Shown here one piece after another: positions 34,153 to 49,786 of a stretch of 64,000 nucleotides of DNA. The DNA is from Syntrophomonas sp. (GTDB taxonomy: Bacteria > Bacillota > Syntrophomonadia > Syntrophomonadales > Syntrophomonadaceae). Numbering within the stretch: the first letter of the stretch is position 1; every line of letters begins with the position of its first letter. A program made the position numbers and the translations under genes. The notes beneath the pieces were generated by a model. It saw only the letters and a list, made by a program, of their open reading frames with translations, was not told the origin of the DNA and searched no databases. The stretch spans positions 1 to 64,000 of the forward strand of contig JAENZE010000002.1 of assembly GCA_016841425.1 (NCBI GenBank), given 5' to 3'.

Positions 34153-34181
34153 TTTATTTTTTAAAATATACGCTTTATAAT
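34153..34181 (+). promoter_or_regulatory. Promoter of leader unit A
   Basis: A consensus TATAAT at 34176-34181 is preceded at 17 bp by a weak TTTATT (34153-34158). The start site expected about seven bases downstream coincides with the first base conserved between leader units A and B. Confidence 0.55.
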
Positions 34182-34187
34182 TAGGTA

Positions 34188-34300
34188 ATAAGACCTAAAC
34201 AGAACGAGTCCAAAACGACAACAAATTTGTCCCAAATGGGCTATCAGATTTTTACGCCCATCAGCAAGTGTTAAAAGAGGTATTTTTATGCCTCTTTTTT
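34188..34300 (+). ncRNA. Leader/small RNA unit A, near-identical to 44506-44619
   Basis: A 113-nt segment is repeated almost exactly 10.3 kb away, with five isolated substitutions before the terminator loop. Three hairpins can be drawn: GACAA/TTGTC (about 34216-34230), ATGGGC/GCCCAT with a 14-nt loop holding most of the differences (about 34236-34261), and the terminal GAGGTA/TGCCTC stem followed by a T-run. In unit B the terminal stem is changed to GAGGTAT/ATACCTC, so pairing is kept while sequence varies. A promoter in front and a terminator behind mean it could be a free small RNA or a leader that controls read-through into the genes behind it. Confidence 0.65.
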
Positions 34301-34316
34301 ATTTTTCTTCACTCTC

Positions 34317-34356
34317 TAAAAGCCGAGTCCTGCTAATAGTAGGATTCGGCTTTTTG
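34317..34356 (+). terminator. Second terminator-like hairpin
   Basis: AAAGCCGAGTCCT pairs with AGGATTCGGCTTT and is followed by TTTG. It lies between leader unit A and the pseudo-receiver gene, so transcription reaching that gene must pass two terminators. Confidence 0.8.
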
Positions 34357-34375
34357 TATTAGGAGGGATGATTTT

Positions 34376-34954
34376 GTGAAGATAGTATTAGCAACAACAT
34401 CAGAAGATATTGATAAATTTATACTGTCCAACTTAGGACAGGCAAAAATTATAGGGATAGGATCGAATCGGCGGCATCTGTTAAAAATTATAAAACGGGA
34501 CCCACCTGACATAGTGATTCTTTCAACTTTTTTGTCCGGAGAAGAAGATTTTAGTGAGATTATTTTTAAGATCATGGAATATGGGAATTGCCGGATAATC
34601 CTATTGGCAAAGGAAAAAGACAAAGTATTGCAGGATGCCTTCTTTTTAGGGGTGCGCGATTACCTTTTTGATCCGATTAATCCTAGTGCGCTTCTAAGTA
34701 GGATACATAATCCTATGTCATTCAAGGAAGCTGCAGCCGTAGTTAAGCCAGGAAAAAGAGGAATCCTCTTTAATAAAAAGATGGACTTGTTTTTTGCTAA
34801 ACATATTCCAGATGAATCTGTGGTGTCCCTTGAAGCTCAGGAGATGTTGCAGGGTATATTAAATTTTATTGAAGAAAAACCTCAAAGCACCCTGGAAGAT
34901 AATCTCTTCCTTATAGAACAAGCATTAATAGGATATTGCAAAACCGCCCAATAA
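34376..34954 (+). CDS. Pseudo-receiver protein 1
   Basis: GTG 34376 after AGGAGGGATG gives 192 residues. Residues 1-120 resemble a response-regulator receiver fold: alternating hydrophobic strands (MKIVLATTSEDI, DIVILSTFLSGEED, CRIILLAKEKDK) ending in YLFDPINPSALLSRI. The block DPINP and SGE(E/D)D are shared with the N-terminus of the 746-residue GGDEF protein at 45535, where the order is the same. The phosphorylatable Asp is not in the usual place, so it is probably an atypical receiver used for protein contacts. The remaining 70 residues are helical. Confidence 0.6.
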   Translation: MKIVLATTSEDIDKFILSNLGQAKIIGIGSNRRHLLKIIKRDPPDIVILSTFLSGEEDFSEIIFKIMEYGNCRIILLAKEKDKVLQDAFFLGVRDYLFDPINPSALLSRIHNPMSFKEAAAVVKPGKRGILFNKKMDLFFAKHIPDESVVSLEAQEMLQGILNFIEEKPQSTLEDNLFLIEQALIGYCKTAQ

Positions 34955-34970
34955 TCAGGGCGGTATTTTT
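34943..34970 (+). terminator. Terminator overlapping the stop of pseudo-receiver 1
   Basis: ACCGCCC pairs with GGGCGGT around an 8-nt loop that begins at the stop codon, followed by ATTTTT. Confidence 0.8.
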
Positions 34971-35023
34971 GTGGGGAAATCTGCATCAGTGAAATCCATA
35001 TCTGGGAAAGGAGGAATTTTTTT

Positions 35024-35299
35024 ATGAAGGAAATCAGAGAAATCAAAGTAAGTGATCATGCGGTGGAAAGGTTTAAGCAGCGTTGTTTCAAGTGTTATAA
35101 CTGGCCGGAAGAAAAAATACGCCAAAGACTGGAAACCATTGCACGGAAAGGCAAAGTAATTAAAAAATGCCCTGGAAATGCTTTTGAGGTTATGTTTGAA
35201 AACATGATTATCCGGACAGCTGTTAACAATGACAAAGTGGTAGTAATTACTTGTTTGGGATCAAAATCCTATCGTAATTGGTATAGAAAGGCGGGGTAA
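35024..35299 (+). CDS. Small hypothetical protein, possibly DUF4258-like
   Basis: This 91-residue protein follows GGAGGAATTTT. It starts KVSDHAVERFKQRC, an HA-x-x-R-x-x-x-R pattern seen in DUF4258 and related RelE-fold small proteins. Beta strands follow (FEVMFENMIIRTAV, KVVVITCLG). No antitoxin-like partner is adjacent. It may be a small RNA- or protein-binding module. The family call is tentative. Confidence 0.5.
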   Translation: MKEIREIKVSDHAVERFKQRCFKCYNWPEEKIRQRLETIARKGKVIKKCPGNAFEVMFENMIIRTAVNNDKVVVITCLGSKSYRNWYRKAG

Positions 35300-35311
35300 A
35301 AGATAGATATA

Positions 35312-35872
35312 TTGCTAATCACAACAGACGATTCCTTAAGTAATCATATCAAGAAGTTAGGCCAAGTAATGCCCGTTAAGCAAACGTCAGTAGCAATCAA
35401 GTTTTTACAAAGCAAAGAGTTTGATTTAGTGGTTTTAGGGCCCCCGTTTCAAGAAAAAGATAAGACTAGTATAAATCATTCTAATATCTATCTGATTAAT
35501 AAGCCAGAAGATATTAAAGGGCTTTTTGATAAATATCAGACAAAACCTTTGCCGGCAGAAGCACCAAGAAAACTAAAGCCATTAAAAGCGGATATAAACT
35601 ATGCAAGTGCCAAAGGAAAGGTGTTATTAATAACCACCAACAAAGAGACTGTAAAAGAATTAGACTGTTTTGAATTGCGGGTGGCCACTAATTTATATTC
35701 TGCGAAACGTCTGATCTTAGACAACGGCTTTAATTTAATCATCATGGATATGGGTTTAAAACTAAAAACCAATTTACCAACCTATAAATGGGGAATAGAT
35801 GTTCTTAATAAAAAAGACGTTTATTTATTGCTCACAACGGGTCGGCTATCACTGGAAACCACAGAATCTTAG
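35312..35872 (+). CDS. Pseudo-receiver protein 2
   Basis: A TTG-initiated frame of 186 residues directly after a stop in the same phase; the ribosome site GGCGGGG is some 16 bases upstream, which is long. It appears to hold two short receiver-like units (residues 1-70, beginning MLITTDDSLSNHI, and 100-186, beginning KVLLITTNKETVK). The second contains NLIIMDMGLK, where the Asp lies at the receiver phosphorylation position. It resembles the other pseudo-receiver proteins of this block in style but not in close sequence. Confidence 0.5.
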   Translation: MLITTDDSLSNHIKKLGQVMPVKQTSVAIKFLQSKEFDLVVLGPPFQEKDKTSINHSNIYLINKPEDIKGLFDKYQTKPLPAEAPRKLKPLKADINYASAKGKVLLITTNKETVKELDCFELRVATNLYSAKRLILDNGFNLIIMDMGLKLKTNLPTYKWGIDVLNKKDVYLLLTTGRLSLETTES

Positions 35873-35878
35873 GGGGCA

Positions 35879-35908
35879 TAAACCCCACGGCTAAAGCTAG
35901 GGGTTTGT
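35879..35908. repeat. Hairpin AAACCCC...GGGGTTT
   Basis: A 7-bp stem with the loop ACGGCTAAAGCTA and no T-run. The CCACGGCTAAAGC core resembles the subterminal hairpins of IS200/IS605-type elements, but no transposase is near. It may be a scar or an RNA structure. Confidence 0.35.
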
Positions 35909-35934
35909 AGGACACACTTTAGGAGGCGGGGATT

Positions 35935-36393
35935 ATGACTGGAAAAACACATTTTATTGGAGGCATCCTGGCCGGGGTATTAATCACCCAGGCATTGGAT
36001 ATAAACATTGGGTATGCTGTTATCTCAGGATTGGGGGGATTATTACCGGATATAGATGAACCAAATTCAACTATAGGTAGAAGAATACCGGGTTCATTTA
36101 TAGTTAAATTCCTGTTTGGGCATAGGGGGTTTTGGCATTCCTTATTGGCAGCAGCTCTAGTCTATCTACTTATCTTAGGAGTGACATCCAGCACTTTTGC
36201 GGTGTTGTTTGTGGCAGGGTATATTTCGCATTTACTATTAGATGCCTGTACTCCTTCGGGAGTACCTTTTTTATACCCGATAAAACATAATTACTCGTTA
36301 AATTTAATTAAGACAGGGGGGGTAATTGAATACGCATTTTTGGTTTTTTTGTTGGCAGCAGTGTTTTTTACAACGGGAGGGATACAAACATGA
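35935..36393 (+). CDS. YdjM-type membrane-bound metal-dependent hydrolase
   Basis: This 152-residue protein follows AGGAGGCGGGG. It shows the family pattern: MTGKTHFIGGIL, GGLLPDIDEPNSTIGRR, GHRGFWHSL and GYISHLLLDACTPSGVPFLYP, with conserved His/Asp residues in and between four membrane spans. The family is linked to LexA-controlled YdjM in Escherichia coli and has an unproven hydrolase role. It overlaps the first pilin-like gene by 4 bp (ATGA), so it belongs to the secretion operon. Confidence 0.85.
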   Translation: MTGKTHFIGGILAGVLITQALDINIGYAVISGLGGLLPDIDEPNSTIGRRIPGSFIVKFLFGHRGFWHSLLAAALVYLLILGVTSSTFAVLFVAGYISHLLLDACTPSGVPFLYPIKHNYSLNLIKTGGVIEYAFLVFLLAAVFFTTGGIQT

Positions 36394-36728
36394 GGAATTT
36401 ATTTATTTTATTTGCATTACTAATACTATTTGTTTTAGTGCCAATACCAGCCCTGGCTGAATCTATGGAAACTATAGATATTGGCAGTGTGGCATCCGTG
36501 AACAGCGCGGAATTTATACAGAAGGTTTCCACCATGGCTTATGCCTTGTATGGGGTTGCTGTAAAAGTAATTGCCCCGCTCACAGTTATTATTTTGGTTA
36601 TTGGAGGAATAGCCGCTGTATTTTTTAAAGTAGCTAGGACAATAATTGTCTGGGCAATAATCGGCATGGTTTTGGTTTTCTGGTCACCAATGCTGGTGCA
36701 GTTGATCACGAACTGGGTAACAATGTGA
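36390..36728 (+). CDS. VirB2/TrbC-like pilin, first copy
   Basis: This 112-residue protein has a signal peptide (residues 1-23, ending PIPALAES), a short acidic stretch, then two long hydrophobic segments (about 48-75 and 80-108) separated by a short basic loop (FFKVARTI). This is the usual layout of VirB2/TrbC pilins. It is translationally coupled to the YdjM gene upstream and lies 16 bp before the second pilin-like gene. It probably forms the surface fibre or the membrane scaffold of the secretion system. Confidence 0.68.
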   Translation: MRNLFILFALLILFVLVPIPALAESMETIDIGSVASVNSAEFIQKVSTMAYALYGVAVKVIAPLTVIILVIGGIAAVFFKVARTIIVWAIIGMVLVFWSPMLVQLITNWVTM

Positions 36729-36744
36729 AGGAGGGAATTTTAAT

Positions 36745-37119
36745 TTGAAAAAAAATAAAATAGCAATTCTATTCCTGCTCATCGTATGTATGTTTGCAAT
36801 GCCAGTTATGGTTTATGCTGAGGACGATAGTGGTGATAATAAAAATGAAGTAGGTATGATTGATGTAGGCTCAGGATTAGGAGCAGTTGAGAAAGACGCA
36901 CTAGCCCAGAAGGTGCTCGATATTATAACCAATATAGGTTACTTTATTGGGGTAGTTGCAGTCGGTGCATTAGTTTACAACGCATTTAGGTTGGCGACTG
37001 GGGATGAAAAGAAACGTGCTGATGCCAAATCCCATATATTTTATACGTTAGGGGCAGTTGTATTAGTAGGGATGGCATTACTTATTGTTGGCTGGGTAGC
37101 CGGACTACTAGTAAACTAA
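36745..37119 (+). CDS. VirB2/TrbC-like pilin, second copy
   Basis: TTG 36745 after AAGGAGGG gives 124 residues. A signal peptide ends near AMPVMVYAED. Acidic residues follow, then two hydrophobic segments (about 60-80 and 95-122) with a charged loop, GDEKKRADAKSH. The order and loop charge resemble VirB2-type pilins. A strong terminator lies right behind it, so the two pilins can be made in excess over the downstream machinery. Confidence 0.68.
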   Translation: MKKNKIAILFLLIVCMFAMPVMVYAEDDSGDNKNEVGMIDVGSGLGAVEKDALAQKVLDIITNIGYFIGVVAVGALVYNAFRLATGDEKKRADAKSHIFYTLGAVVLVGMALLIVGWVAGLLVN

Positions 37120-37124
37120 GACGA

Positions 37125-37157
37125 AAAAGGCAGGTATTATCCTGCCTTTTCTATTTT
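37125..37157 (+). terminator. Operon-internal terminator after the pilin genes
   Basis: AAAAGGCAGG pairs perfectly with CCTGCCTTTT around TATTAT, followed by a T-rich run. It would reduce, not block, transcription into prgI and virB4. Confidence 0.85.
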
Positions 37158-37174
37158 TATAGGAGGTGTGGCCT

Positions 37175-37510
37175 TTGAAAGTATATCCAGTGCCATTTTC
37201 AACCAAAGAGGAAGATAAATTAATTTTTAATCTTTCTACTAAACAATCATTAATTATAGGTGCGAGTGTTATTCTTGCCCTAATTACTGCTGGTTTATTA
37301 ACAGCAATATTACAAACCCAGATGCTTTTTTGTCTGCCGATAGGACTGCCTGTTATTTTTGTAGGTGTAATATTGGCTATGAAGAAAATTGAGATATCAG
37401 GCTGTGAAATGACCACCGGGGATTACTTGTTTTATAGGTATAAATACAGCCAACGTAAACGCCACTATTTAACGCAAAGAGGGGAAGGAGAAACGAAATG
37501 GTATTTTTGA
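37175..37510 (+). CDS. PrgI/VirB3-like membrane protein
   Basis: TTG 37175, nine bases after AGGAGGTG, gives MKVYPVPFSTKEEDKLIF, the classical PrgI opening; the GTG at 37166 would add three residues and lies in the ribosome site. Two hydrophobic segments (about residues 24-46 and 48-68) are followed by a basic cytoplasmic tail. PrgI is the VirB3 counterpart in Gram-positive conjugation systems and partners the VirB4 ATPase. The gene overlaps the next by 13 bp. Confidence 0.85.
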   Translation: MKVYPVPFSTKEEDKLIFNLSTKQSLIIGASVILALITAGLLTAILQTQMLFCLPIGLPVIFVGVILAMKKIEISGCEMTTGDYLFYRYKYSQRKRHYLTQRGEGETKWYF

Positions 37511-38205
37511 TTGTATTGTTTACGGTTGTTATTTTGGGCTGTGCAGCTCTTTTGTTTTGGGAGAAGAACCGTAGTAAAAAAGAAAACCTGCAAAACGACA
37601 ATAAATTTAATGAGAGCACTACGGATATCGAGGAATTTTACCAGATAGACAATATTCGTGAGGGAATTATTTATAGAGACGATCAGTGTTATATAATGGC
37701 CCGTATCGGGGGACTGAATTTCACGGTTATGTCTTTAAATGAACAGCATAGCCGCGAAGATGCCTTGATTGGTATATTTGCTCGGCTTGACTACCCGATA
37801 AGATTTATCACTAATACAGTCATTGTCGATACTTCCGAAGAAGCAAGAAGAATTGCCGGAATAGCAAATCAAACGCCAGAAAGTACATTAAAAATATATC
37901 GTTATCAATATGCTGGTGCATTAGAACTTATGAGAGCGGAAAGGGCTGTGACCACACAATCTACATTCTTAATAATCCCAGGAAAAGACAAAGAGGAACT
38001 CCGGGATCGTTACCGGATACTTGCAGCTGCCCTTAAAGATCAAGGTCGAATGACGGTGGAATTAGTAGCAACTACCGAAGAAGTGACCGACATTATACAG
38101 GAAATATTAATGCCGGACTCCATTTTTAGGCCATCGGAAAAATTTCAATTTAACGTGGACAGCAATATTCATTTAAGCGAAAAGGAGGCCCTGGAGTATG
38201 CCTAA
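37498..38205 (+). CDS. Separate N-terminal part of a VirB4/TraC-type ATPase
   Basis: This 235-residue protein has one N-terminal membrane segment and a soluble domain (IREGIIYRDDQCYIMARI, then STFLIIPGKDKEELRDRY). It resembles the N-terminal, non-catalytic domain of VirB4/TraC proteins. The ATPase domain is encoded by the next gene, which overlaps it by 8 bp. In most Gram-positive systems both are one polypeptide or the first part is a small TraC-like protein. It probably anchors the ATPase to the membrane complex. Confidence 0.6.
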   Translation: MVFLIVLFTVVILGCAALLFWEKNRSKKENLQNDNKFNESTTDIEEFYQIDNIREGIIYRDDQCYIMARIGGLNFTVMSLNEQHSREDALIGIFARLDYPIRFITNTVIVDTSEEARRIAGIANQTPESTLKIYRYQYAGALELMRAERAVTTQSTFLIIPGKDKEELRDRYRILAAALKDQGRMTVELVATTEEVTDIIQEILMPDSIFRPSEKFQFNVDSNIHLSEKEALEYA

Positions 38206-39982
38206 TAACTCAAAGATTAAACAATTATTTATGGCCGACAGGATAACCGAGCGAGAAGATTATCTAGTTATTAATAATACATACTGTAGAACCCTGCACG
38301 TTGATATGTTGCCAGAACAAATCCAATTTGGTTGGTTTAACCGGATAGCATATATGAATGGAGTAACTATATCAGTAACCCTGCATCCGTACCGCCCGGA
38401 AGATGCGGCCAAAAAAGTGGACTCAGAACGAATTAAACTAGGAGCAGAGCTTATTGTTACCAGGAAGCAGGGCAATACCAGCAGGGTAGATGTGTTAGAG
38501 GTTAAAGAAAACTTTTACCGACACTTATTAAGGGAAATTAACCTTCATAATACAAATATTATGTCGGTGAGTGTAGTAATCAACGTAATAGCTGCCGATA
38601 TAGACAGCCTAAATAAAAAATGTGCCCAAATACAAGATTGGATGGGGGCTACAAAATTAACCCCATTATATCTCAGACAACTTGATGGTTTAAGGGCTTT
38701 ATTACCTGGGACTAAAATAAACACGGCTCATATAGATGTAACCGTTAGCAATGCAGCCTGTGTTGCCCCGCTAATCAATATGAATATATCCCACCCGCAG
38801 GGAGTATATTTTGGCGAAAATGCGTATAGCAGTTCGCCCTGTTTTGTAGATTTATTTGCAGGGCAACCGTTATTAAACGGTCCTCACGCCTTTGTAACTG
38901 GAATGACCAGGGTAGGTAAATCCTTTACCATGAAAGGTCTGTTTGCGCGTTCACTGGCGATAGGCAGGAAAATAGCAGTAATAGATCCCGAAGGGGAGTA
39001 CAAACAGCTTTGCATGGAGTTTGAGCAGGAGAGTGAATACGTCCGCTTGCACCCCTCAATGGAAGTTGTTTTCAACCCATTCGATATAGAGCCAGAGCAG
39101 GATGATGCAATGGGTGAATTTATTGACATAGCAGCAAAAGTTGATGATATAGCATTTTTGATCAGTGTAATGGTAACTACCCAAAGTGGGGAAAAACTAA
39201 CAGTTGAGGAAATGAGTAGTCTATCTACCCATATAAAAGCAGAATATGAAAAAAGGGAAATTAACGCATCGCCGGATAGTATATTTTACCATGAAAAGAA
39301 AGTGACTCCAGAAGGGATTATGGTAGGTCAATCCAAGAAAGAGATGCCCACCTTCACAAGCTTAACGGAATCATTTAAAGATGTTAACCCTCGGCTTTAC
39401 AATATACTTACCCAGTATTGTAAGGGTGGCCCATTAGGATTTTTTGACGGTCAAACCGCTATGGATTTAAAGTCAAAAAACTTAGTGGTGTTTGATCTGC
39501 TGGCTCTAAGGAATGACCATTCCAAGATGTTTGCTATGTATGTTTTACTGTCCTGGTTATGGGAGAATTACGTCAAGGCAGATCGAGCAACCCAGAAACA
39601 CTTAGGAGTGGATGAAGCATGGTTGATGATGACTCATCCATATACCGCAAAATTCATGAGCCAGATAGCACGGCGTGGTGCGAAGTATAATACTTCGTTG
39701 ATAGCCGCATCACAATCGTTTAGAGAGTTTACCACTGATGAAGGCATTGTATTTATGAATCAATGTGATTCAAAATTCTTTTTAAAAATGCAGACTTCAG
39801 ATGCCGAGGAATTAGGTAAAATATTCAACCTATCCCCCGAACTAGTGGCAATGATATCTACATTTACGCCCGGCCAAGGAATATTAAAATTAGGTCACGA
39901 GAGTGGAATAGTGCGATTTAAAGGATTTTCTTTTGAAGAACACTTTCTCCGTTCCGATCCAGGGGCGGTGCAGCTCCGATGA
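38198..39982 (+). CDS. VirB4/ConE-type conjugation ATPase
   Basis: This 594-residue protein contains Walker A in FVTGMTRVGKSFTMKG (about residues 232-247), then AVIDPEGEYKQL, and Walker B in HLGVDEAWLMM (about 468), followed by QIARRGAKYNTSLIAASQ, the standard VirB4 sequence. It powers assembly of the secretion channel and pilus. It is translationally coupled with its neighbours on both sides (8- and 4-bp overlaps). It is not the VirD4 coupling protein, which has different flanking motifs and membrane spans. Confidence 0.93.
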   Translation: MPNNSKIKQLFMADRITEREDYLVINNTYCRTLHVDMLPEQIQFGWFNRIAYMNGVTISVTLHPYRPEDAAKKVDSERIKLGAELIVTRKQGNTSRVDVLEVKENFYRHLLREINLHNTNIMSVSVVINVIAADIDSLNKKCAQIQDWMGATKLTPLYLRQLDGLRALLPGTKINTAHIDVTVSNAACVAPLINMNISHPQGVYFGENAYSSSPCFVDLFAGQPLLNGPHAFVTGMTRVGKSFTMKGLFARSLAIGRKIAVIDPEGEYKQLCMEFEQESEYVRLHPSMEVVFNPFDIEPEQDDAMGEFIDIAAKVDDIAFLISVMVTTQSGEKLTVEEMSSLSTHIKAEYEKREINASPDSIFYHEKKVTPEGIMVGQSKKEMPTFTSLTESFKDVNPRLYNILTQYCKGGPLGFFDGQTAMDLKSKNLVVFDLLALRNDHSKMFAMYVLLSWLWENYVKADRATQKHLGVDEAWLMMTHPYTAKFMSQIARRGAKYNTSLIAASQSFREFTTDEGIVFMNQCDSKFFLKMQTSDAEELGKIFNLSPELVAMISTFTPGQGILKLGHESGIVRFKGFSFEEHFLRSDPGAVQLR

Positions 39983-42438
39983 TAAAATACAAGCATTTTA
40001 TAATAACCCTATTATTGGTTTTATTTTTATGTCCTGCCCAGGTTATAGCGGTAGAAGATAATTTTGATGCTTCTGTAACCTGGACTGGGTCAAACATAAG
40101 TGTTCAGTACACGGGGTATGAGCCGGGATTTAGTGATATGTTGACAATGACTATCATGAATACTTCTTCTGGGGAAACATGGACGGCTAAAACGAGAGAT
40201 AAAACATTCAATAAGAAAGTTACCGATATTAATATACAAACAACTGGCAGCATTCCTCAACCGCAAGAAGGAGAAGTATGGACCATTATCTTTGATTATG
40301 GTGGTCAAAACCCATATACTACATCGGTTGATTGCTGGTTTCCTAATCAGGAAATAGATGATACCGGTAATCCTGTGCCAGTGGAAAATACCGCCAAAGA
40401 CAATATGGAGGGGAATTGGAAAAGCGGTGCTATGCCTATATTTCCTGGGGATAGCCAGAAGGTTGTAATGTTCTGGTATTACAGCCTAGCAACTCTCAGC
40501 GGGGCTTTTATGTTTCTGTTGTTTGTAAAATCTGGCTATCAGCACATATTCTCAACGACTAGCAACCCGGGAATGAGAGCATCTGTAATAATGACGGTAC
40601 AACGGGGTATTGTAGGTTTAATTATTATCATGCTTGCGCCATTTATCGTGAATATACTTATATCAATAAATGATACCTTCGTTGATTTATGCCGGCAATT
40701 GTTAGAAACAGCCGCACAGCCGGTAAATTTAGAAAACGTAGCATCATTAGAAAAAGCTAATGCTATAGAAAATATAATCTCCGGGGCTATTGATGGTATC
40801 AATAAAATAATATGTCATGTGCTGGGGCTAACACCCATAGGGGATTTAATATTCAACCAAACTCCAAATTGTACGATATTTAACTCTTTGCAGGGTGATT
40901 TTGTTAATACTAACAATGTATTTGCAGACGTTATTTTACATTTTGCTTTGTTAGCATATACCCTGTATTTTAACATCGTATATGTTGTCCGTAGATGGGT
41001 AGTAACAGTGGTATTAGCTGTTACACCGATAATAATATGGTCGTGGATCGTATCTGATAACAAACAAATAATCGGGTTGTGGGTTGCTGAGTTGGTGCAA
41101 ACAATTTTTATGCAAACCTTTCATGCACTCACATTCGGTATTGTGTTTAGTATTTTAGCTTTTTCTGGCGGTAACTTGGCCGCAGATTATATAAACGGGG
41201 TTACGATAAGTGCTCTATTAGTAGGGGTAGGGAAATACCTTGCCGCTTTCGGAGGCGTAGCCTGTGTAGCCATGCTGATTATACAAGCATACCGGATAAT
41301 TCTTAATAGCAACGAAAAAGAACGAGTTGACGCGATAGGTAAAATCAAAAGTGCGTTGGCTGGATTAGTAATATTAAGTTCATCCTATATGCTGGTATCA
41401 GCGATCTTCCCACATAAAATTGATATTTATCACCAGGGAGATATAGATGTCGGGAACACCGTTATATCTATAGGGGCTTACACACCAGAACCGACTGAAA
41501 TTACTGTATTTGTCCTCTTTTTTGCCTTGGTCGCAATTATTCCTATATCTAAGGCTCTTTCAATGATATTTATGAGTATTGTTGCACGTTTTGGTACCGT
41601 AGATGAAATGGGGATAGCCCAGGGTGGAATGCTTGCCCTTGGTCATAATGTGAGCAATGCGTTTAAAAAGAATAAGAGTAGCAGTGGGAGTATCCGAAGT
41701 AGTAGAAGTAACGAAAGTAGCGAGAATGGTGATAGTGTTGGAGATAGTAAACATTTAACTATAGGTGGCAATAACCAGACCAATGACGCATCGAGTGGTA
41801 ACAACCAAATTAGCAGCCTTGATAATGGTGGGGTAGAAAGGAATAATGTTGTTGGGATGGCAGCTGATGATAATTATTCAACAAGAAGTATTGCAGGAAA
41901 TCCTTATTTTGAGGATGATAATTCTTCAACAGGAAGTATTGCGGGAAATCCTTATTTTGAGGATGATAATTATGGGATGTATACCGCAGATACAAATAAC
42001 CAACTTCCTAATAATGAAACGAGTGATGAAGAATTAGGTTTACGTATAACTAATGATGTTCCTGCAACCCCTCATATAGACCAACTCAAGGCCAAAATAG
42101 ATACAGCAAAGGATGCAGCAAAATCATCTATAGATGAAGCAAAACCTTTCCTTAAAAAGACTCATGAAGTGGCTAAAACTGGTGGAAGAGCCGGTCAAGC
42201 CTTCGGTGATGCAATAGCACCAGGAATGGGTACTATAACAGGGATGGCAGGATATACGATGGCGGGAGCATCGACAATGATTGGAAAAGCGGGTATAGCA
42301 GGTATTCGCAAGGGAGCAAAAACCTTGGTGAATACTGAACAGGGACAAGCATTAAAAACTCATGCTACTTATGGACTTGAAAATACCCTAAGAGCAGCCC
42401 ACGAGTTAACTGCCAGAAGGCGCACTATGGATCAATAA
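39979..42438 (+). CDS. VirB6/TrbL-like polytopic channel protein
   Basis: This 819-residue protein starts in a 4-bp overlap with virB4. It has a signal peptide (to about residue 26), an extracellular beta-rich domain of about 130 residues (FDASVTWTGSNISVQYTG), then about seven membrane spans between residues 155 and 545. A long hydrophilic, Asn/Ser-rich C-terminal region follows, with two copies of a 16-residue repeat and an Ala-rich helix. This is the layout of VirB6-like proteins of Gram-positive systems, which form the inner channel. A terminator follows the stop. Confidence 0.8.
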   Translation: MIKYKHFIITLLLVLFLCPAQVIAVEDNFDASVTWTGSNISVQYTGYEPGFSDMLTMTIMNTSSGETWTAKTRDKTFNKKVTDINIQTTGSIPQPQEGEVWTIIFDYGGQNPYTTSVDCWFPNQEIDDTGNPVPVENTAKDNMEGNWKSGAMPIFPGDSQKVVMFWYYSLATLSGAFMFLLFVKSGYQHIFSTTSNPGMRASVIMTVQRGIVGLIIIMLAPFIVNILISINDTFVDLCRQLLETAAQPVNLENVASLEKANAIENIISGAIDGINKIICHVLGLTPIGDLIFNQTPNCTIFNSLQGDFVNTNNVFADVILHFALLAYTLYFNIVYVVRRWVVTVVLAVTPIIIWSWIVSDNKQIIGLWVAELVQTIFMQTFHALTFGIVFSILAFSGGNLAADYINGVTISALLVGVGKYLAAFGGVACVAMLIIQAYRIILNSNEKERVDAIGKIKSALAGLVILSSSYMLVSAIFPHKIDIYHQGDIDVGNTVISIGAYTPEPTEITVFVLFFALVAIIPISKALSMIFMSIVARFGTVDEMGIAQGGMLALGHNVSNAFKKNKSSSGSIRSSRSNESSENGDSVGDSKHLTIGGNNQTNDASSGNNQISSLDNGGVERNNVVGMAADDNYSTRSIAGNPYFEDDNSSTGSIAGNPYFEDDNYGMYTADTNNQLPNNETSDEELGLRITNDVPATPHIDQLKAKIDTAKDAAKSSIDEAKPFLKKTHEVAKTGGRAGQAFGDAIAPGMGTITGMAGYTMAGASTMIGKAGIAGIRKGAKTLVNTEQGQALKTHATYGLENTLRAAHELTARRRTMDQ
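41866..41971 (+). repeat. Tandem 48-bp coding repeat in the VirB6-like tail
   Basis: Two in-frame units (41866-41913 and 41914-41961) encode DDNYSTRSIAGNPYFE and DDNSSTGSIAGNPYFE, followed by a partial third unit. Only a few bases differ, so the duplication is recent and copy number may vary between strains. Confidence 0.9.
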
Positions 42439-42451
42439 TTGAATATTTTAC

Positions 42452-42479
42452 AATACCCGCCTTCGAGCGGGTATTTTTT
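42452..42479 (+). terminator. Operon-internal terminator after the VirB6-like gene
   Basis: AATACCCGC pairs with GCGGGTATT around CTTCGA and is followed by TTTTA. The ribosome site of the cell-wall hydrolase comes directly after it. Confidence 0.85.
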
Positions 42480-42492
42480 ATGAGGTGATTTA

Positions 42493-44445
42493 ATGACCAA
42501 CAGCGATCAGATGGATAATAATATAGAACAACAAGGCAAGCAAATGGGTAATGTACTGGGAAAAAAACTTGGCAAAGCTGTTGCAAAACAAGCAAAGGCA
42601 AAATTACTGCCCCTTTTGTTAAAATTCTTTGCGGCCACTGCCCCCTTCTGGGTTATTTTAATTGCTGTGATTTTGGTTTTTGGAGCTGTGTATGCTACGT
42701 TCCCCGGAAACAAATTAACTTCCGGGCAAGAACAAGTATTTTTCTCTTTTAAGGATTCGGAAGAAAATAAAAAGGTCAAAGATTTATATATAGAAATAGC
42801 AGATAAAAATAATTTCCGCGATTCCTGGCTAGACACAGATTATATTACAACAAACACAGATGTGGTTTTTGAAGGCAAGCACGAAGGTGTCTACACAAAA
42901 GAAGAAATTATTAATTTACTGAATAACAGTACATATACTGGCACTCACGGGAAAGATACTGAGCGTGTTTTAAGTGATTATTACGGTATAGATAAATCCC
43001 ATAAAATTGACTTCGGCACCATTCATGCAGCTAATTACATTAAAGTATTAGTGCACGGAGAAGCTGAAACCACTAATGAATTTAAAGAACAAGTAGGAGA
43101 AGCATTCAGGCCCTATTTGTATTATAAGGAATCCACGCGGACTTATTGCAGTTTGCACGAAACTGAGAAAGGCTCAGAATGGGTATGTCACACTGAGAAC
43201 GTATATCTATTAACTGAAGCCAATACCATTAAAGGTCATTATAAATATGAATATGAATGGGTAGAAGAAAGCGGTGAAACATGGAACCGGTCTTATGAAG
43301 CCCTAAAATCAACCACCCTGGTCAACACTGAATGGGAACGTCTTGATCTATGGATTACCGAAATATTAGGAGAGCAAGGGAAACAATTAAGTTCAACCCG
43401 ACTTATGCTAATTGAGGCCGGGGTAGCATTTACTGAAGAACGAGAGAACGTAAAATGGCTTTTAGAAGGAATTTATTCTGACCATAACATATCTACGGGT
43501 ATAATAAATCCGGCTTTAATGCAATATTTTATGCAGGCAGAAAAAGCCTTCGGTTTTCCGTCATGGTTTTTGCAGGCAATAGCCTTTATTGAAAGTGGTC
43601 TTGATTCGGAAGCCTATAATAATAAAACGCAAGCCTATGGTTTGATGCAGTTATTGCCAGGAACCCAGAAAAGCACAGTGGATAAACTGGTAGACGAATA
43701 CCCTCATTTATTGTCCGAGGATTTTTTAATCCTATATCATAATACAACAAATAAAGATGCTGAATTTTATAAACAAGCAGTATCAAGCCCTAGTCTTAAT
43801 CTTATGGCAGGGTGTATGGATTTATTAAATAAAGGCTTAGATCCTTCTAGAATTGATTGGGAGGGTGATTGGCAAAACCAAACCCTCAAGGTTTTAGCAG
43901 GGTATGGCGGTCACGCATATGTGCCAAAGAAATTATGGTCTAAGTATGGAGTAACCGATGAAGCTGATTCTTATACAGAAGAAAAAGTGTTAGCCTGGGC
44001 TAAAGATAATTATGTGCAAAACATATGGGATAATGCTGAGAAATTCCAAATCGAAACATCCTGGCCATTTGAGGGCAGTTATCCTGTTACGGCTGAATTT
44101 AAACAAAAAGGCAGTCTTTGGACTTTGGGGTGGCACACTGGCATTGATTTTTCGATGGATGTAGGGACACCACTATCAGCTATGTTTAATGGTGAGGTGG
44201 TTGCAGCTGGATATCAAGCAGGGTACGGTAAAATATTGGTCGTTACCAATTACGTCTATGATGTGTGGTATGCCCACTTGGATAAAATCAATGTAACTAA
44301 TGGTCAGCAGGTAAATGCGGGGCAACTTGTCGCATATTCAGGTAATACTGGTAAAAGCACTGGGGCGCACCTGCATTTAGAAGTAAGGCCCCATGGAGGT
44401 GAATATGGCAACGTCCTAAATCCGCTATCAATTTGGTACAATTAA
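42493..44445 (+). CDS. Membrane-anchored lytic transglycosylase plus M23 peptidase
   Basis: This 650-residue protein follows TGAGGTGATTTA. A basic, amphipathic N-terminus leads to one membrane span (about residues 46-72). Residues 350-500 hold a lysozyme-like SLT domain with the catalytic Glu in FLQAIAFIESGLDSE and AYGLMQLLPGTQ. The C-terminal 115 residues are an M23 endopeptidase with GWHTGIDFSMDVGTPL and AHLHLEVRPHGG supplying the zinc ligands. It cuts both glycan and peptide bonds to open the wall for the secretion channel, like VirB1/CwlT proteins. The long region between is of unknown fold. Confidence 0.92.
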   Translation: MTNSDQMDNNIEQQGKQMGNVLGKKLGKAVAKQAKAKLLPLLLKFFAATAPFWVILIAVILVFGAVYATFPGNKLTSGQEQVFFSFKDSEENKKVKDLYIEIADKNNFRDSWLDTDYITTNTDVVFEGKHEGVYTKEEIINLLNNSTYTGTHGKDTERVLSDYYGIDKSHKIDFGTIHAANYIKVLVHGEAETTNEFKEQVGEAFRPYLYYKESTRTYCSLHETEKGSEWVCHTENVYLLTEANTIKGHYKYEYEWVEESGETWNRSYEALKSTTLVNTEWERLDLWITEILGEQGKQLSSTRLMLIEAGVAFTEERENVKWLLEGIYSDHNISTGIINPALMQYFMQAEKAFGFPSWFLQAIAFIESGLDSEAYNNKTQAYGLMQLLPGTQKSTVDKLVDEYPHLLSEDFLILYHNTTNKDAEFYKQAVSSPSLNLMAGCMDLLNKGLDPSRIDWEGDWQNQTLKVLAGYGGHAYVPKKLWSKYGVTDEADSYTEEKVLAWAKDNYVQNIWDNAEKFQIETSWPFEGSYPVTAEFKQKGSLWTLGWHTGIDFSMDVGTPLSAMFNGEVVAAGYQAGYGKILVVTNYVYDVWYAHLDKINVTNGQQVNAGQLVAYSGNTGKSTGAHLHLEVRPHGGEYGNVLNPLSIWYN

Positions 44446-44464
44446 TAATTAAATAGGATAATAG

Positions 44465-44493
44465 TTGCAAATTGTTTACGTATAAGTTACTAT
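44465..44493 (+). promoter_or_regulatory. Promoter of leader unit B
   Basis: TTGCAA (44465-44470) and TACTAT (44488-44493) are separated by 17 bp. The predicted start is just before the conserved leader at 44506. Confidence 0.55.
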
Positions 44494-44505
44494 TGTATAA
44501 GGGTT

Positions 44506-44619
44506 ATAAGACATAAACAGAACGAGTCCAAAACGACAACAAATTTGTCCCAAATGGGCTATCAGATTCTTGCGCCCATCAGTAAGTGTTGAAAGAGGTA
44601 TAAAAATACCTCTTTTTTT
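44506..44619 (+). ncRNA. Leader/small RNA unit B, near-identical to 34188-34300
   Basis: The second copy of the 113-nt unit. All three hairpins of unit A are kept: GACAA/TTGTC, ATGGGC/GCCCAT and the terminator GAGGTAT/ATACCTC with its T-run. Differences fall in loops and linkers or preserve pairing. It lies before the M48 protease and the GGDEF fusion gene. Its sequence identity outside the stems (for example AACAGAACGAGTCCAAAACG) is higher than expected for a simple terminator and implies selection on the RNA. Confidence 0.65.
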
Positions 44620-44654: not shown

Positions 44655-44678
44655 AACAAATTGAAAGGGGATTTTTTA

Positions 44679-45563
44679 ATGAAACTTATATTAACTTTTA
44701 TTAATTTCATAGTTGTTTGTTTAACTTATTTGACAATACTCTACGCGTCAGTGGGCGTCCTTTTATCCATTATGGGGTATCCCATTGGGAATAATACATT
44801 AGTCTATGGTCTATTGGTTATTGCGGTAATTGTGTTTATTATAAGTATTGGTTTGCTGAAGATTGGAATTGTCAAAGACCAGTATATTAGAGACAACCGA
44901 TTAATGAGAATAGAGTCTGATGAATTGGATAAGGTTTTAAGCGATATATGCAGCCAACTAAAGATAGATAAACCCACTGTGTATTATGATAATAGCCAGG
45001 AAATAAACGCATCCGTGGTAAGTAAAGACATGTTGATTTTAAATAAGGGGTTTGTTGAATTTGCCACAAAATATGAAATATTCGCTGTAACAGCTCATGA
45101 AGCAGGCCATTTAAAACACGGAGATAGCCGATATTTTGAATACAATTATATTCTAAGAACTATGGCATCTGGAATACTTGGATTCACGGAAGGATTGGTT
45201 TTCGGGAAAACAGAGGAGCAGCGGGATATGCCAGTATTGCTTATGGTATTGCTTTTTCCTTTAATGTTTTATCTACTTATCCTACGGCTTGCTTGGTTTG
45301 TCACAAGCAACCTAACTTTCTTAATAGACAGAATTTCATCTCCATATAAAGAGTACAGAGCAGACCGTTATTGCGTAGAACTCGGATTTGGGGATCATTT
45401 GATTACATTCGCAAATAAACTAATGGAAAAATTTCCGGAAGAACGTAAAGAACGCCGATTTTTTTCCACACATCCTACCTGGAAACAGAGAATCGAAGCG
45501 ATTAGAAAACTGCAGGAAAAGGAGGTCTTAAATTGTGGCAATCTTGCTTGCAACCGGAATTAA
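44679..45563 (+). CDS. M48-family membrane metalloprotease (HtpX-like)
   Basis: ATG 44679 follows GAAAGGGGATT and gives 294 residues; an earlier TTG overlaps the ribosome site. Two N-terminal membrane spans are followed by the M48 catalytic motif TAHEAGHLKHGD (zinc ligands His and His, catalytic Glu), a hydrophobic pair around residues 185-215, and the third ligand region YKEYRADRYCVELG. It ends THPTWKQRIEAIRKLQEK, typical of HtpX. It may process or degrade membrane proteins during channel assembly. It overlaps the next gene by 29 bp. Confidence 0.9.
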   Translation: MKLILTFINFIVVCLTYLTILYASVGVLLSIMGYPIGNNTLVYGLLVIAVIVFIISIGLLKIGIVKDQYIRDNRLMRIESDELDKVLSDICSQLKIDKPTVYYDNSQEINASVVSKDMLILNKGFVEFATKYEIFAVTAHEAGHLKHGDSRYFEYNYILRTMASGILGFTEGLVFGKTEEQRDMPVLLMVLLFPLMFYLLILRLAWFVTSNLTFLIDRISSPYKEYRADRYCVELGFGDHLITFANKLMEKFPEERKERRFFSTHPTWKQRIEAIRKLQEKEVLNCGNLACNRN

Positions 45564-47775
45564 AGAGATAGACCAAGAATTAAATCAATATGAAGGTTTT
45601 TATAACTGCTATAACCGATATGTCGTTATGGATATGGTTGAAACAATAAAACCCAATGTAGTTGTGGTTTCCCCATATCTAAGCGGGGAAGATGATCTTG
45701 TAAGTAGCGTGATCGAGCCATTGAGGAATGAAAATATACGGGTTATTTTTTTACCGGGTAATCCGAAATACAACGATGCCCGGAACTGGATGCGACAGCT
45801 TATTGGTTGGGGAATTTACGATTACGTTTATGATCCCATAAACCCTGAAAAAGTAATAGAAAGAATAGAAAATCCCGGCAAACTTAAAGATTTGCCCCAG
45901 GACATAGTAAATGAATCATCAAAAAATGATGTAGCCAGTTTTATAGATATGCTGCCCGAAGATGAAGATGAAGAAAATTTAGAGAAGGCTTTTCAGAACC
46001 CATTACAAAGATTAAAACCTAAACCCAAAAAGAAGGAAAAGCCCAAAGAATTACCCCAGCAAGCCAGTAACCTTCCAGTGATAGTAAAAGAACCAAAACG
46101 GGTAAAGAGCAAACCGAAGCCTAAAATCAATTTCGGGGGGCTGTTTGTAAAAACCGGATATATTAAAGATGGAGAATTTCATAAATTTAAAGCCGCCACG
46201 CTAGAAGAATTATTAGAAGCCGATACTGATCTGGATGCGGTAGTCGTACCTAAGTCTTGGGATATCAACGATATCAAGAAATATCGTAGAGATAGGCGAA
46301 GCAAAACAGTGATGCTGGTAGTCTTAAAAGGGAATAAAGAACATCTTTCCTGTGGTGCGGATTACTGCATCAAAAAAATAACCCCGCAGATTAAGCGGGA
46401 GATTAGTCTATTGAGTAAAAAGACGAAAAATCTCTGGCGCAGGGTGGATACAGATTCTCTTACCGGGTTGTATTCCCGGGCATTCTTTAATGAATGGCTG
46501 ATCGAGCAGAATTTCCGTAAAATGCCTTACAGTCTGGTTATGTTGGATATAGACCACTTCAAACGAGTGAATGATAATTACGGCCACGATAGTGGGGATG
46601 CCGTTTTAGCAGCTTTTGGTGATTTTCTTAAATCCAATATCCGAACTGTAAAAGGTGCCGATTTAGCCTTTAGGTACGGAGGGGAAGAATTTACCCTGGT
46701 GCTTCCTTACACAACTTCCACTCAAGCCTATATAGTAGTGGATAGGATAAGGGAAGAATGGTCAAAGCGCATAATAACCTTGTCAGATGGCCGGACAATA
46801 ACAACCACATTCTCTGCTGGGGTTGCAGAATGGCAGGAGGGTTGCGATATATGTAAAGAAGCTGATGTTATGCTATATAAAGCCAAGGGAGCCGGAAGAA
46901 ATCAAGTTAAGAGTGAACCGGCAAGGCAACGGGTACTAGTGTTGGGTAAGATACCAGCAGCCGAATTAAAGGAACATGGTTTTGATACCACCTATGATCC
47001 TCAACTGGCAACATCAGTAATATGCGATAAAGACAGCTTAGATTATGCCCCACAAGGACTTCCATTGTATGTTATCGGGACCGGGCAGTTATCGGACTGG
47101 ACAATCAAGAAGCAACGGGAAGATGCTGTAATATGTATGTCGGTAGTCGAGATAGTCGAAAAACTTAAACCAAAAACCAATTTGCAGGTATTACCCGGGG
47201 TAAGAACCAATGAGAAAAGCCATACCATTCCAAAAAACGGCACGTTGTATGTAGTGTGTCCGTCAAGACCGGCAGCAGCCGGGGAAGTAGCTGTAAGACT
47301 GGTAAACTCGATAAATAATTCAGCTTTGGTATGTGCATCATCGGAAAGCACAGCAGCTTTAACAATAGGCATACCAGAGCATCAGCTTATCACATCAGAT
47401 TGGCGAATCTTAAAAGCCGATGCACCGGTTAAGTGGGCAGGGGTGTATGTGTGGCCGATAGACCCATATAAACACATATCGTCACATCACGATACTCAGG
47501 CACTTGTTGATCAGATCAAGGATAAATTCTCTATTGTTGTGGTTGATTGCGGAGCCAGTTTGGATATATGTTCACGCATATCACCCAATGAGGGAGTTCT
47601 CCTGTTATATAAAGAAGGGGACGCATCCGATGTAGCAACCAAGCACTGGCATAAGGTACATGGAGGGCAGAACGTATTAGCGATGTCGCCTAATGAAGTG
47701 CCGACAATAATTGAAGCGGAGAATGGTTTTGTTATCTCATACCAGTGTAACAATGTCATTAGAAGTGTAAGATAA
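45535..47775 (+). CDS. Pseudo-receiver/GGDEF/MinD-like fusion protein
   Basis: GTG 45535 after AAAGGAGG gives 746 residues. Residues 1-125 match pseudo-receiver 1 (PYLSGEDDLV, YVYDPINPEKVIERI). A basic, Pro/Lys-rich linker and a second receiver-like segment (about 200-290) follow. A GGDEF domain then spans about 300-460 with the metal Asp in VMLDIDHFKRVNDNYGHD and an intact RYGGEEF. The inhibitory site reads KGAD instead of RxxD. The C-terminal 280 residues resemble MinD/CpaE/TadZ ATPases (KFSIVVVDCGASLD), but the P-loop position reads CPSRPAAAGE without Lys. It is probably an active diguanylate cyclase tied to a localisation domain. Confidence 0.78.
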   Translation: MAILLATGIKEIDQELNQYEGFYNCYNRYVVMDMVETIKPNVVVVSPYLSGEDDLVSSVIEPLRNENIRVIFLPGNPKYNDARNWMRQLIGWGIYDYVYDPINPEKVIERIENPGKLKDLPQDIVNESSKNDVASFIDMLPEDEDEENLEKAFQNPLQRLKPKPKKKEKPKELPQQASNLPVIVKEPKRVKSKPKPKINFGGLFVKTGYIKDGEFHKFKAATLEELLEADTDLDAVVVPKSWDINDIKKYRRDRRSKTVMLVVLKGNKEHLSCGADYCIKKITPQIKREISLLSKKTKNLWRRVDTDSLTGLYSRAFFNEWLIEQNFRKMPYSLVMLDIDHFKRVNDNYGHDSGDAVLAAFGDFLKSNIRTVKGADLAFRYGGEEFTLVLPYTTSTQAYIVVDRIREEWSKRIITLSDGRTITTTFSAGVAEWQEGCDICKEADVMLYKAKGAGRNQVKSEPARQRVLVLGKIPAAELKEHGFDTTYDPQLATSVICDKDSLDYAPQGLPLYVIGTGQLSDWTIKKQREDAVICMSVVEIVEKLKPKTNLQVLPGVRTNEKSHTIPKNGTLYVVCPSRPAAAGEVAVRLVNSINNSALVCASSESTAALTIGIPEHQLITSDWRILKADAPVKWAGVYVWPIDPYKHISSHHDTQALVDQIKDKFSIVVVDCGASLDICSRISPNEGVLLLYKEGDASDVATKHWHKVHGGQNVLAMSPNEVPTIIEAENGFVISYQCNNVIRSVR

Positions 47776-47864: not shown

Positions 47865-48782
47865 GTGATTACCTATGTATCTGGGAATATTTTTGAGAGT
47901 CCTGCCAGAGTGTTGGTTAATCCTGTTAATACAGTTGGAGTCATGGGTAAAGGTTTGGCCAAAGAATTTAAGACAATATATCCTGAAATGTTCAAAGAAT
48001 ATCAACATTATTGTGAAACGGGCTTACTAGATATTGGTAGATTGTGGATATATAAAACGGATCACAAGTGGATATTGAATTTTCCAACAAAAAAGAACTG
48101 GAGAAGTCCCTCAAAACATGAATATATTGAAGCTGGTCTTAAAAAATTCATCTCCACATATGCACAAAAAGGAATAACTTCAATTTCTTTTCCGCTGCTG
48201 GGGTGTGGGAATGGAGAATTAGATTGGGAAACGGATGTTCATCCTTTGATGAAAAAGTATTTAAACAAGCTACCTATTGACATTTATATTCATTTGTTAA
48301 ATTCGAAAGCAATAAAGGCCGAGCACAAAAACATAGAGGAAATTAAACTATGGCTTAGAAGTGAACCGCAGTCACTAGCGTTTAGTGAAGTTTGGGAAGA
48401 CCTCACTGAATTATTGGATAAACACGAAATGTTTGTAACTCTTGATACAAAAGAAGAGTTCCGTGCTTATATAACCAATTGTACTCTTCATGTTATACAT
48501 GGTAAGGGAATATATAAGATATCTAAGGAAGAATTATGGGGATTATGGCAACATATGCGTAGCATGGGGTATTGCATCAAAAGTAGTATGCCATATGGAT
48601 TGGAAAGATATTCATCTTATATTTTTAGCGTTTTTAGCGAACTACCGTATATTAGTTCAATTTATATTACATCAAATTATAACGAGATTAACAAAGCCCC
48701 ATCGCTAGGTTTGCAGTATAAGGCGCCGATTAATTCCCTGGGTAATCTGTTTACTCCTATTGAAGTGTTTGAGGTTATTTAA
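47865..48782 (+). CDS. darG: DarG-like macrodomain antitoxin
   Basis: GTG 47865 after AAAGGGGTGAT gives 305 residues. Residues 1-150 are a macrodomain: ITYVSGNIFESPARVLVNPV, then TVGVMGKGLAKEFK, NFPTKKNWRSPSKHEYIEAGL and the loop FPLLGCGNGELDWE. DarG macrodomains remove the ADP-ribose that DarT places on thymidine bases in DNA. The C-terminal 150 residues have no recognised fold, but the equivalent part of DarG binds the toxin. It precedes the toxin by 2 bp; in the well-known operons the toxin comes first. Confidence 0.87.
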   Translation: MITYVSGNIFESPARVLVNPVNTVGVMGKGLAKEFKTIYPEMFKEYQHYCETGLLDIGRLWIYKTDHKWILNFPTKKNWRSPSKHEYIEAGLKKFISTYAQKGITSISFPLLGCGNGELDWETDVHPLMKKYLNKLPIDIYIHLLNSKAIKAEHKNIEEIKLWLRSEPQSLAFSEVWEDLTELLDKHEMFVTLDTKEEFRAYITNCTLHVIHGKGIYKISKEELWGLWQHMRSMGYCIKSSMPYGLERYSSYIFSVFSELPYISSIYITSNYNEINKAPSLGLQYKAPINSLGNLFTPIEVFEVI

Positions 48783-48784
48783 TC

Positions 48785-49786
48785 ATGAAAGGTGAGTATA
48801 AAAAGGATAAACAGCAAATCGTAGAGTTTTTAAATAGTCTATATAATGCTGATTGGCTACCTTCATCACAAAAATGGTGGCCAAAATATATTTATCATTT
48901 CTCAAATATTGATAATGCAGTTCAGATATTAGAAGATGGATGTTTATATAGTAGATATTATCTCGCTAATAATCAGAGAATGATTACTGATAATGCCAGC
49001 TCGGAAGTCATAAGTCATACAGATAAACAGTGGCAAAAATATGTGCGATTATATTTTAGGCCAAAAACGCCTACGCAATGTCGTAACGAAGGATTTAGGC
49101 CTGTTAATCAGAGGTATGATAATGCACATTGTCCAGTTCCAGTATTTTTTTTGTTTGATGCAAAAAAGGTGCTTACCAAAGCTAATGTTCAGTATTCTGA
49201 TGGAAATTTAGCATCTAGCAGAACAAGGGTTTACGAAACAGCTGATGATTTGGAACAAATTCCATTCAAAGAGGTTTATCATGACAGTTGGTTTAGTCCA
49301 GAATATCGGGATCGGATTATACATCATCGTCATGCAGAAGTATTAATACCGGAGTGCCTTTCACTCGAAGATTTACGAACTGTGATATGTAGGACTGAAG
49401 CCGAATACGAAACATTACTTGATTTATTATCTGTCCCGGCATTCAATAAATGGTATGAAAAAATTGGTGCTAGCAAAAAGGGTAATTTGTTTTATAGAGA
49501 CTGGCTTTTTATTGAAGAGGTAGATCTGAATGAATCATACGTGAATATAGCATTTAATGATTCGAACTACAATTACGATCCGTTTAATATTATTATCACA
49601 GTTAAGGATAATGAAGTAGACAAGATCTATACTTGGAGAAAAGAGGAATACACAATTCCGGTTAATAAAACATTAAAACTTAAATTACCTTCCAAAATAA
49701 CGAATCCGGCGAACTATCAGTTAAAAATATATTTTGATAAACAGCTAATGTACTCTAATATATATTATACTGATATACCATTCTAG
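48785..49786 (+). CDS. darT: DarT-like DNA ADP-ribosyltransferase toxin with C-terminal extension
   Basis: This 333-residue protein has a DUF4433/DarT core in residues 35-220: IYHFSNIDNAVQILEDG, VRLYFRPKTPTQCRNEG, VPVFFLFDAKKVL and the catalytic-region glutamate in HHRHAEVLIPE. DarT toxins use NAD to modify thymidine in single-stranded DNA and can act as anti-phage abortive systems. The core usually makes up the whole protein of about 210 residues. Here about 110 further residues form a beta-rich domain (YNYDPFNIIITVKDNEVD, LKLKLPSKITNPANYQLK), which is unusual and might bind a target or partner. Confidence 0.87.
   Translation: MKGEYKKDKQQIVEFLNSLYNADWLPSSQKWWPKYIYHFSNIDNAVQILEDGCLYSRYYLANNQRMITDNASSEVISHTDKQWQKYVRLYFRPKTPTQCRNEGFRPVNQRYDNAHCPVPVFFLFDAKKVLTKANVQYSDGNLASSRTRVYETADDLEQIPFKEVYHDSWFSPEYRDRIIHHRHAEVLIPECLSLEDLRTVICRTEAEYETLLDLLSVPAFNKWYEKIGASKKGNLFYRDWLFIEEVDLNESYVNIAFNDSNYNYDPFNIIITVKDNEVDKIYTWRKEEYTIPVNKTLKLKLPSKITNPANYQLKIYFDKQLMYSNIYYTDIPF

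Follow-up and report, generated by a model that had tools for sequence, protein, structure and literature searches.

The window analysed here, a stretch of 64,000 nucleotides (nt) from a Syntrophomonas sp. contig (JAENZE010000002.1, GenBank assembly GCA_016841425.1), carries two nearly identical 113-nt RNAs at the heads of gene clusters in a conjugative element. Their sequence and surroundings make it likely that they are cis-acting antitermination leaders of a previously undescribed family. We give a probability of about 0.5 to the proposal that the leader acts in cis as an RNA antiterminator, promoting readthrough of the terminators behind it. Antitermination was one of three options in an earlier note on this DNA, next to a small RNA and a riboswitch, and it has gained ground: in six of six copies a terminator stands between the promoter-like stretch and the gene, and internal terminators are common downstream.

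Copy 1 occupies positions 34188-34300 and copy 2 positions 44506-44618; these and the other parts of the leaders and operons 1 and 2 located below lie on the plus strand. The two share 103 of 113 bases (10 differences, 91% identity, E 5.8e-40 by blastn within the genome), so the near-identity first described is confirmed, as are the coordinates of copy 1, while copy 2 ends at 44618 and not at 44619. The pair is real, but its scope was drawn too narrowly: there are five copies in this genome, spread over two elements. Whole-genome blastn places a third copy 32 kb further along the same contig (C3:76095, 84% over 80 nt) and finds core matches, copies 4 and 5, on a second contig, C22, at 91058 and 113940. 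The sixth is the single copy of a congener (G015), which the model described next also recovers. The five copies of this genome agree exactly in a 21-nt core, CGACAACARATTTGTCCCAAA, if R is allowed at one site; the core reads CGACAACAAATTTGTCCCAAA in copy 1 (34216-34236), is matched in copy 2 at 44534-44554, and has GGACAACAAAATTGTCCCAAA as its counterpart in the congener. A covariance model (R1) built from the six copies recovers exactly the five of this genome, the next match there having E 0.16; the matches at 34195-34262 (91.7 bits) and 44513-44580 (91.8 bits) are those of training members. The order of promoter-like stretch, core, terminator and genes is the same in six of six copies and in two species, as is the orientation relative to the genes. 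Shared ancestry in the recent past may account for part of this conservation, in copies 1 and 2 at the least.

An intrinsic terminator follows the core in every copy despite sequence change, and comparison of all six, but not of fewer, brings out compensatory, two-sided changes at five pairs. In copy 1 the terminator scan places it at 34273-34298, with a second, tandem terminator at 34322-34350; in copy 2 it is recognised by sequence and fold at 44591-44616. Each RNA thus ends in a terminator, as had been claimed. The pairing-preserving change reported between these two stems does exist, but it amounts to one wobble, U-G to U-A, which is less than was implied; in the loop, TTTT has turned into AAAA. 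From the last terminator to the start codon there are 26 nt in copy 1, about 60 in copy 2, about 32 in copy 3 and about 45 in copy 4. Because a promoter could hardly fit into so short a stretch, transcription of the genes behind copies 1-4 most likely requires readthrough. In copy 5, two tandem terminators are followed by a longer stretch of about 100 nt, within which a promoter could lie. A short palindrome, GTACGCGNGTAC, also occurs between the leader terminator and the start codon in copies 2 and 5; its positions are C3:44642, C3:110901, C22:92681 and C22:114132, on both contigs.

The two window copies were said to begin just after a promoter, and both stretches can be read by eye, but a consensus promoter scan misses both and counts about as many promoters as chance would give. 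Copy 1 is preceded by a weak TTTATT, 17 nt and a good TATAAT (34153-34181). The promoter region of copy 2 (44456-44493) consists of a 20-nt box, GGATAATAGTTGCAAATTGT, with TTGCAA and TACTAT 17 nt apart. In both copy 2 and copy 3 the box covers the -35 region, being identical at 44456-44475 and C3:76045-76064; elsewhere in the genome it has no match at two or fewer mismatches and one at three. It could be an activator site common to both copies. A promoter-like stretch of its own, a strong terminator, a length of 113 nt and the stability of the full-length fold (z -3.9 and -4.4) would suit a free-standing small RNA present in several copies. We consider this improbable: the operons would be left without an obvious promoter, for which reason the option fits poorly, the tandem terminators of copies 1 and 5 would make no sense, and the copies stand exactly at operon starts in two elements.

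The antitermination reading draws some further support from terminators inside the operons; Miguel-Arribas et al. regard such terminators as a good indication of processive antitermination (PMC8955417). A simple longest open reading frame (ORF) rule served to call genes, and tight same-strand gaps of 15-150 nt holding a terminator were counted, leader terminators excluded; element borders are approximate. In the host chromosome (260 kb, three stretches from three contigs), 2 of 100 such gaps hold a terminator. The fraction is 3/5 in operon 1 (Fisher p 0.0005 against the host chromosome), 5/20 in C3 33.5-97 kb (p 0.0014) and 8/18 in the second element, on C22 (p 2e-6). Elsewhere on C3 it is 0/8 and 0/16, and in the C22 flanks 2/25 and 0/3. 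The contrast persists with gap limits of 60 and 100 nt. As a yardstick, the conjugation operon of pLS20, for which antitermination has been published, gives 4/20 by the identical rule. The scan places the three terminators of operon 1 at the end of the pseudo-receiver gene (34943-34964), 16 nt before the PrgI gene at 37166 (37125-37150), and 18 nt before the M23 gene at 42493 (42452-42475).

In the mechanism that we propose, RNA polymerase would start just upstream and transcribe the core of about 70 nt with its first hairpin. As it emerges, this RNA would modify the elongating polymerase, either by itself or together with a host protein. The polymerase would then pass the first terminator after the leader and, where operon 1 and the second element hold others inside the operon, those as well. 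Spurious transcripts lacking the leader would end at these internal terminators, and long clusters of transfer and replication genes could probably be expressed through terminator readthrough. Working promoters, RNA-dependent readthrough, processivity and an action of the RNA on polymerase are all things that we infer. The simplest inference is that the RNA works with host parts only, because the two elements share no candidate protein. A full-contig blastp comparison of C3 with C22 yields five hit pairs, of which just one, an IscB-like RRXRR/HNH protein, falls within both elements. Such independence would resemble that of put and that suspected for canT; a host RNA-binding protein may be the factor. 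The genome, which is rated 100% complete, has one PF02357 match only, and since it encodes a single NusG-domain protein, a LoaP-type paralogue is unlikely.

As to the RNA itself, hairpin H1 (GACAA/TTGTC, 34217-34231) is paired and invariant in six of six copies. Hairpin H2 (ATGGGC/GCCCAT, 34236-34261) is kept in copies 1, 2 and the congener and broken in copies 3, 4 and 5, although copies 4 and 5 can form GCTGG/CCAGC instead. Three hairpins had been described as kept in both window copies. They do appear in the best fold of copy 1 if the terminator is folded apart, but full copy 2 prefers an alternative in which AGUCCA pairs with UGGGCU and encloses H1. Copies 3 and 5 fold best with an extended hairpin on AUUUG/CAAAU. 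By these predictions the central part of the RNA seems to be bistable and not to hold a single structure. Covariation support for the AGUCCA/UGGGCU or AUUUG/CAAAU helix comes to one double change in one copy, too little to claim; the alternative helices were counted by hand, the congener's row in the alignment is shifted by one base near AGT, and a covariation test would need more than six related copies.

Pairing of a leader segment with the 5' arm of the terminator was no better than in shuffled leaders in four of the six copies (best duplex in copies 1, 2, 3 and the congener, z -0.5 to 1.8), so a switch between terminator and antiterminator is unlikely. This bears on two alternatives, both of which we regard as highly improbable. 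The first is a riboswitch for a cyclic dinucleotide or another small molecule. It would agree with the apparent bistability and with the intact GGEEF protein encoded by one of the regulated operons, but there is no common antiterminator hairpin or expression platform, and no metabolic theme unites the genes behind the copies; those on C22 (AAA ATPase, DUF1257/DUF2997, DNA replication) are unrelated to cyclic dinucleotides. Nor is there an Rfam class: Rfam 15, which includes EAR, gives no match in the window at gathering scores, and the best sub-threshold matches are all far under the cut-offs. In a comparison locus, this Rfam search did detect fluoride and molybdenum riboswitches. The earlier note, too, recognised no known riboswitch class. 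The second is a leader peptide that would control termination through ribosome stalling, read in copy 1 as ATG GGC TAT CAG ATT TTT ACG CCC ATC AGC AAG TGT TAA. Its frame and stop position are kept in three of six copies (1, 2 and the congener) though the stop codon has changed; but no ribosome-binding site precedes the ATG, copy 3 lacks both the ATG and that stop, copies 4 and 5 lack the ATG, and there is no antiterminator partner.

Several observations weigh against a processive RNA antiterminator. H1 shows no covariation, its sequence being invariant across the six copies, and copy 3 lacks the second hairpin. A marginal upstream segment that could base-pair with the arm of the terminator does exist in copies 4 and 5 (z -2.4 and -2.2). 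Internal terminators are found in 0 of 1 gaps of operon 2 and 0 of 7 of operon 3, which leaves processivity unsupported there; a looser scan reports a hairpin at C3 82265-82290. Two of the five terminator-holding gaps on C3 (63789 and 67817) are not directly behind a leader. Finally, the GACAA-N5-TTGTC dyad could also serve a DNA-binding protein.

Two explanations take up these points. In the first, a non-processive attenuator, an RNA-binding protein of host or element would bind the core, and only the adjacent terminator would be passed. The near-invariance of the core over 21 nt, unpaired bases included, is what a protein site would show, and operons 2 and 3 are without internal terminators in the gap count. 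We nevertheless find it rather unlikely, since it lacks a common antiterminator pairing in four of six copies, leaves the internal terminators of operon 1 and of the second element unexplained, and has no NusG-type paralogue to call upon. In the second, a repressor would bind the dyad as a DNA operator just past the promoter, and the terminators would be insulation only. The 5-bp dyad is perfect in six of six copies and extends to GGACAA-N5-TTGTCC in the congener. But conservation continues well past the dyad on one side, including asymmetric sequence, all six copies are oriented alike relative to the genes, the five clear copies in the genome all lie in leaders and none elsewhere, and passage through the terminators is left unexplained. 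An operator thus seems a poor candidate, less credible than the attenuator.

The genes behind the leaders are varied. Operon 1 opens with the pseudo-receiver gene (34376-34954), whose product gives a weak Response_reg match below the Pfam cut-off and is related to the N-terminus of the GGDEF protein of operon 2 (E 1.8e-13). Its remainder (35024-44445) encodes, by Pfam, a type IV secretion system (T4SS) pilin, PrgI, a VirB4/TraG-type ATPase and an SLT/M23 protein. Operon 2 opens with an M48 peptidase gene (44679-45563, by Pfam, with an in-frame TTG start at 44661), followed by that of a pseudo-receiver-GGDEF protein with an intact GGEEF motif (45535-47775, by Pfam and translation). The earlier note had placed pseudo-receiver/GGDEF clusters behind both copies. 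In this analysis copy 1 precedes a pseudo-receiver gene with T4SS genes, and copy 2 an M48 gene and only then the pseudo-receiver-GGDEF gene. Behind copy 3, a ParA/CpaE-like protein whose N-terminal domain is related is encoded along with a type IV prepilin peptidase and a T2SSE ATPase, and by its gene content operon 3 is read as a Tad-type pilus operon. Related pseudo-receiver domains occur in the first or second gene of all three C3 operons.

Copies 4 and 5 lie within a replication-type element (about C22 89-126 kb), where the first genes encode an AAA ATPase (copy 4) and a DUF1257/DUF2997 protein (copy 5). The element also encodes a ligase, exonucleases, a primase, SSB, DNA polymerase III beta, an anaerobic ribonucleotide reductase and a thymidine kinase. 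A replication-protein gene precedes the congener's copy, as one does copy 4, and the two genes are related (47% over 155 aa); the congener's contig ends 2 kb past the leader. From this distribution we consider, as a tentative reading that we hold less firmly than antitermination as such, that one small RNA could mark several operons for antitermination, and do so in no fewer than two unrelated mobile elements of one host: the secretion, signalling and pilus operons of the conjugative element, and the two long gene blocks of the replication-type element. If true, the RNA would act directly on host polymerase or a host protein, and elements in the same cell would recognise one signal.

Some neighbouring loci are recorded for their own sake. 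Directly behind the GGDEF gene of operon 2, the window encodes a macro-domain protein and then a DarT protein, a DarTG-like pair (47865-49786). An OLD/TOPRIM ATPase gene and then a UvrD helicase gene follow at 51569-55493, an order that we take to be that of Gabija defence, with a SIR2_2 protein at 55706. A paralogous gene pair (5482-6192 and 60083-60796, 53% identity over 236 aa) lies near opposite ends of the window. Between copies 2 and 3 a HEARO RNA (143 bits) adjoins an RRXRR/HNH protein gene in an IscB-type locus (L016, 5104-6601). On C22, a TnpB-like gene (OrfB_IS605, Cas12f1-like TNB) lies just upstream of copy 5 (L018, 1440-2579), and the replication element has a Prok-E2 family D protein with, by eye, a ThiF/E1-like start further on (L062, 903-1541 and 2920-3738).

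The covariance-model search proposed in the earlier note covered 398 genomes from the phylum, the complete set of 63 from the class, and 10 from the class to which G267 belongs; clear matches came only from the present genome (G000), G015 and G267. Among the remaining matches, at E 1e-4 to 0.1, the nine genomes inspected show no leader context. A strict pattern scan gave no match, and a looser one over 84,980 species genomes gave 30 stretches, about the chance expectation, among which the leader appears only in two contigs (L035 and L042) of the Thermincola ferriacetica metagenome-assembled genome BM5_bin.18. Over 8 kb each, the two contigs match C22 at 99.99% and 100% identity, and since the matching sequence extends beyond the element they do not count as an independent case; such identity across different families would point to misbinned contigs or very recent transfer. 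Viral contigs gave three matches, all chance, and protein-based scans gave no relatives. Blastn of copy 1 against 72,556 plasmid records returned two weak matches to the terminator end only, and blastn against a phage collection none. In a literature search of mostly non-subscription papers, we met no description of such an element in these organisms.

VirB4 relatives with 46-49% identity mark sibling elements in G205, G306 and G259. Their gene order is the same, with the GGDEF gene directly behind M23, which makes copy 2 together with the M48 gene look like an insertion in the present element. The leader is absent from all three siblings. Terminators occupy 2/8, 4/18 and 3/11 of their tight gaps; their own flanks are small (1/14, 0/5 and 1/3), and the control for these counts was taken from G000. 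The sibling in G306 does carry two leader-like RNAs 470 nt apart on the minus strand (L135, about 7535-7667 and 8020-8137). The sequence of their first hairpin is entirely different yet paired, they have a common CCTCGGCAG stretch and the same terminator, and they have no Rfam match.

The leader would work much as HK022 put, Tn916 canT or pLS20 conAn2 do, though the searches made brought no relation in sequence to light. The put RNAs of phage HK022 (putL and putR) are about 70 nt long, lie just past promoters, occur in more than one copy per element and act on polymerase without an element protein (PMC9378689); the last property is proposed for the present leader also. However, put consists of two long stem-loops, whereas the leader has one short invariant hairpin and a variable one, and the hosts differ. 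Put is set apart by description, with sequence comparison limited to the blank blastn result with the phage collection. The canT RNA of Tn916 is a cis-acting RNA of a Gram-positive conjugative element that allows passage of internal terminators (PMC11658703), as is proposed here. By the same description it is a single 452-bp region, of which 341 nt are still active, in contrast to the several copies of about 70-113 nt found here.

The conAn system of pLS20, made up of the ConAn1 protein and the conAn2 RNA, offers the same order of promoter, leader, terminator and long conjugation operon, and its operon has internal terminators and a TadA-like gene (PMC8955417; pLS20 sequence). Over this plasmid R1 finds no relative of the leader (best match E 0.065). 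When pLS20 ORFs of at least 40 aa are compared by tblastn with C3 1-164 kb and C22, only TadA, VirB4-like, SSB and CAT match; the first genes of the pLS20 operon do not. Nor does this tblastn bring up a counterpart of ConAn1, which is encoded at the start of that operon. LoaP, for its part, works with a hairpin and terminator in the leaders of long operons and serves several of them, but it is a NusG paralogue acting with a hairpin that has a UNCG loop (PMC12691694), and the present genome encodes a single NusG-domain protein.

EAR of the Bacillus subtilis eps operon works by RNA-based processive antitermination (PMC11658703, PMC8955417), as is proposed for the present leader, and is set apart by the lack of an Rfam match of any kind in the window. 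RNA-only antiterminators are few: the sources cited name put, EAR, canT and, within conAn, the RNA component (PMC9378689, PMC11658703, PMC8955417). If the present leader joins them, RNA-based guarding of long mobile-element operons would be more widespread than known and would include conjugative elements of anaerobic Bacillota. Compared with the larger canT, it would be a compact part of about 70 nt, used repeatedly, whose action on a Gram-positive polymerase is directly testable.

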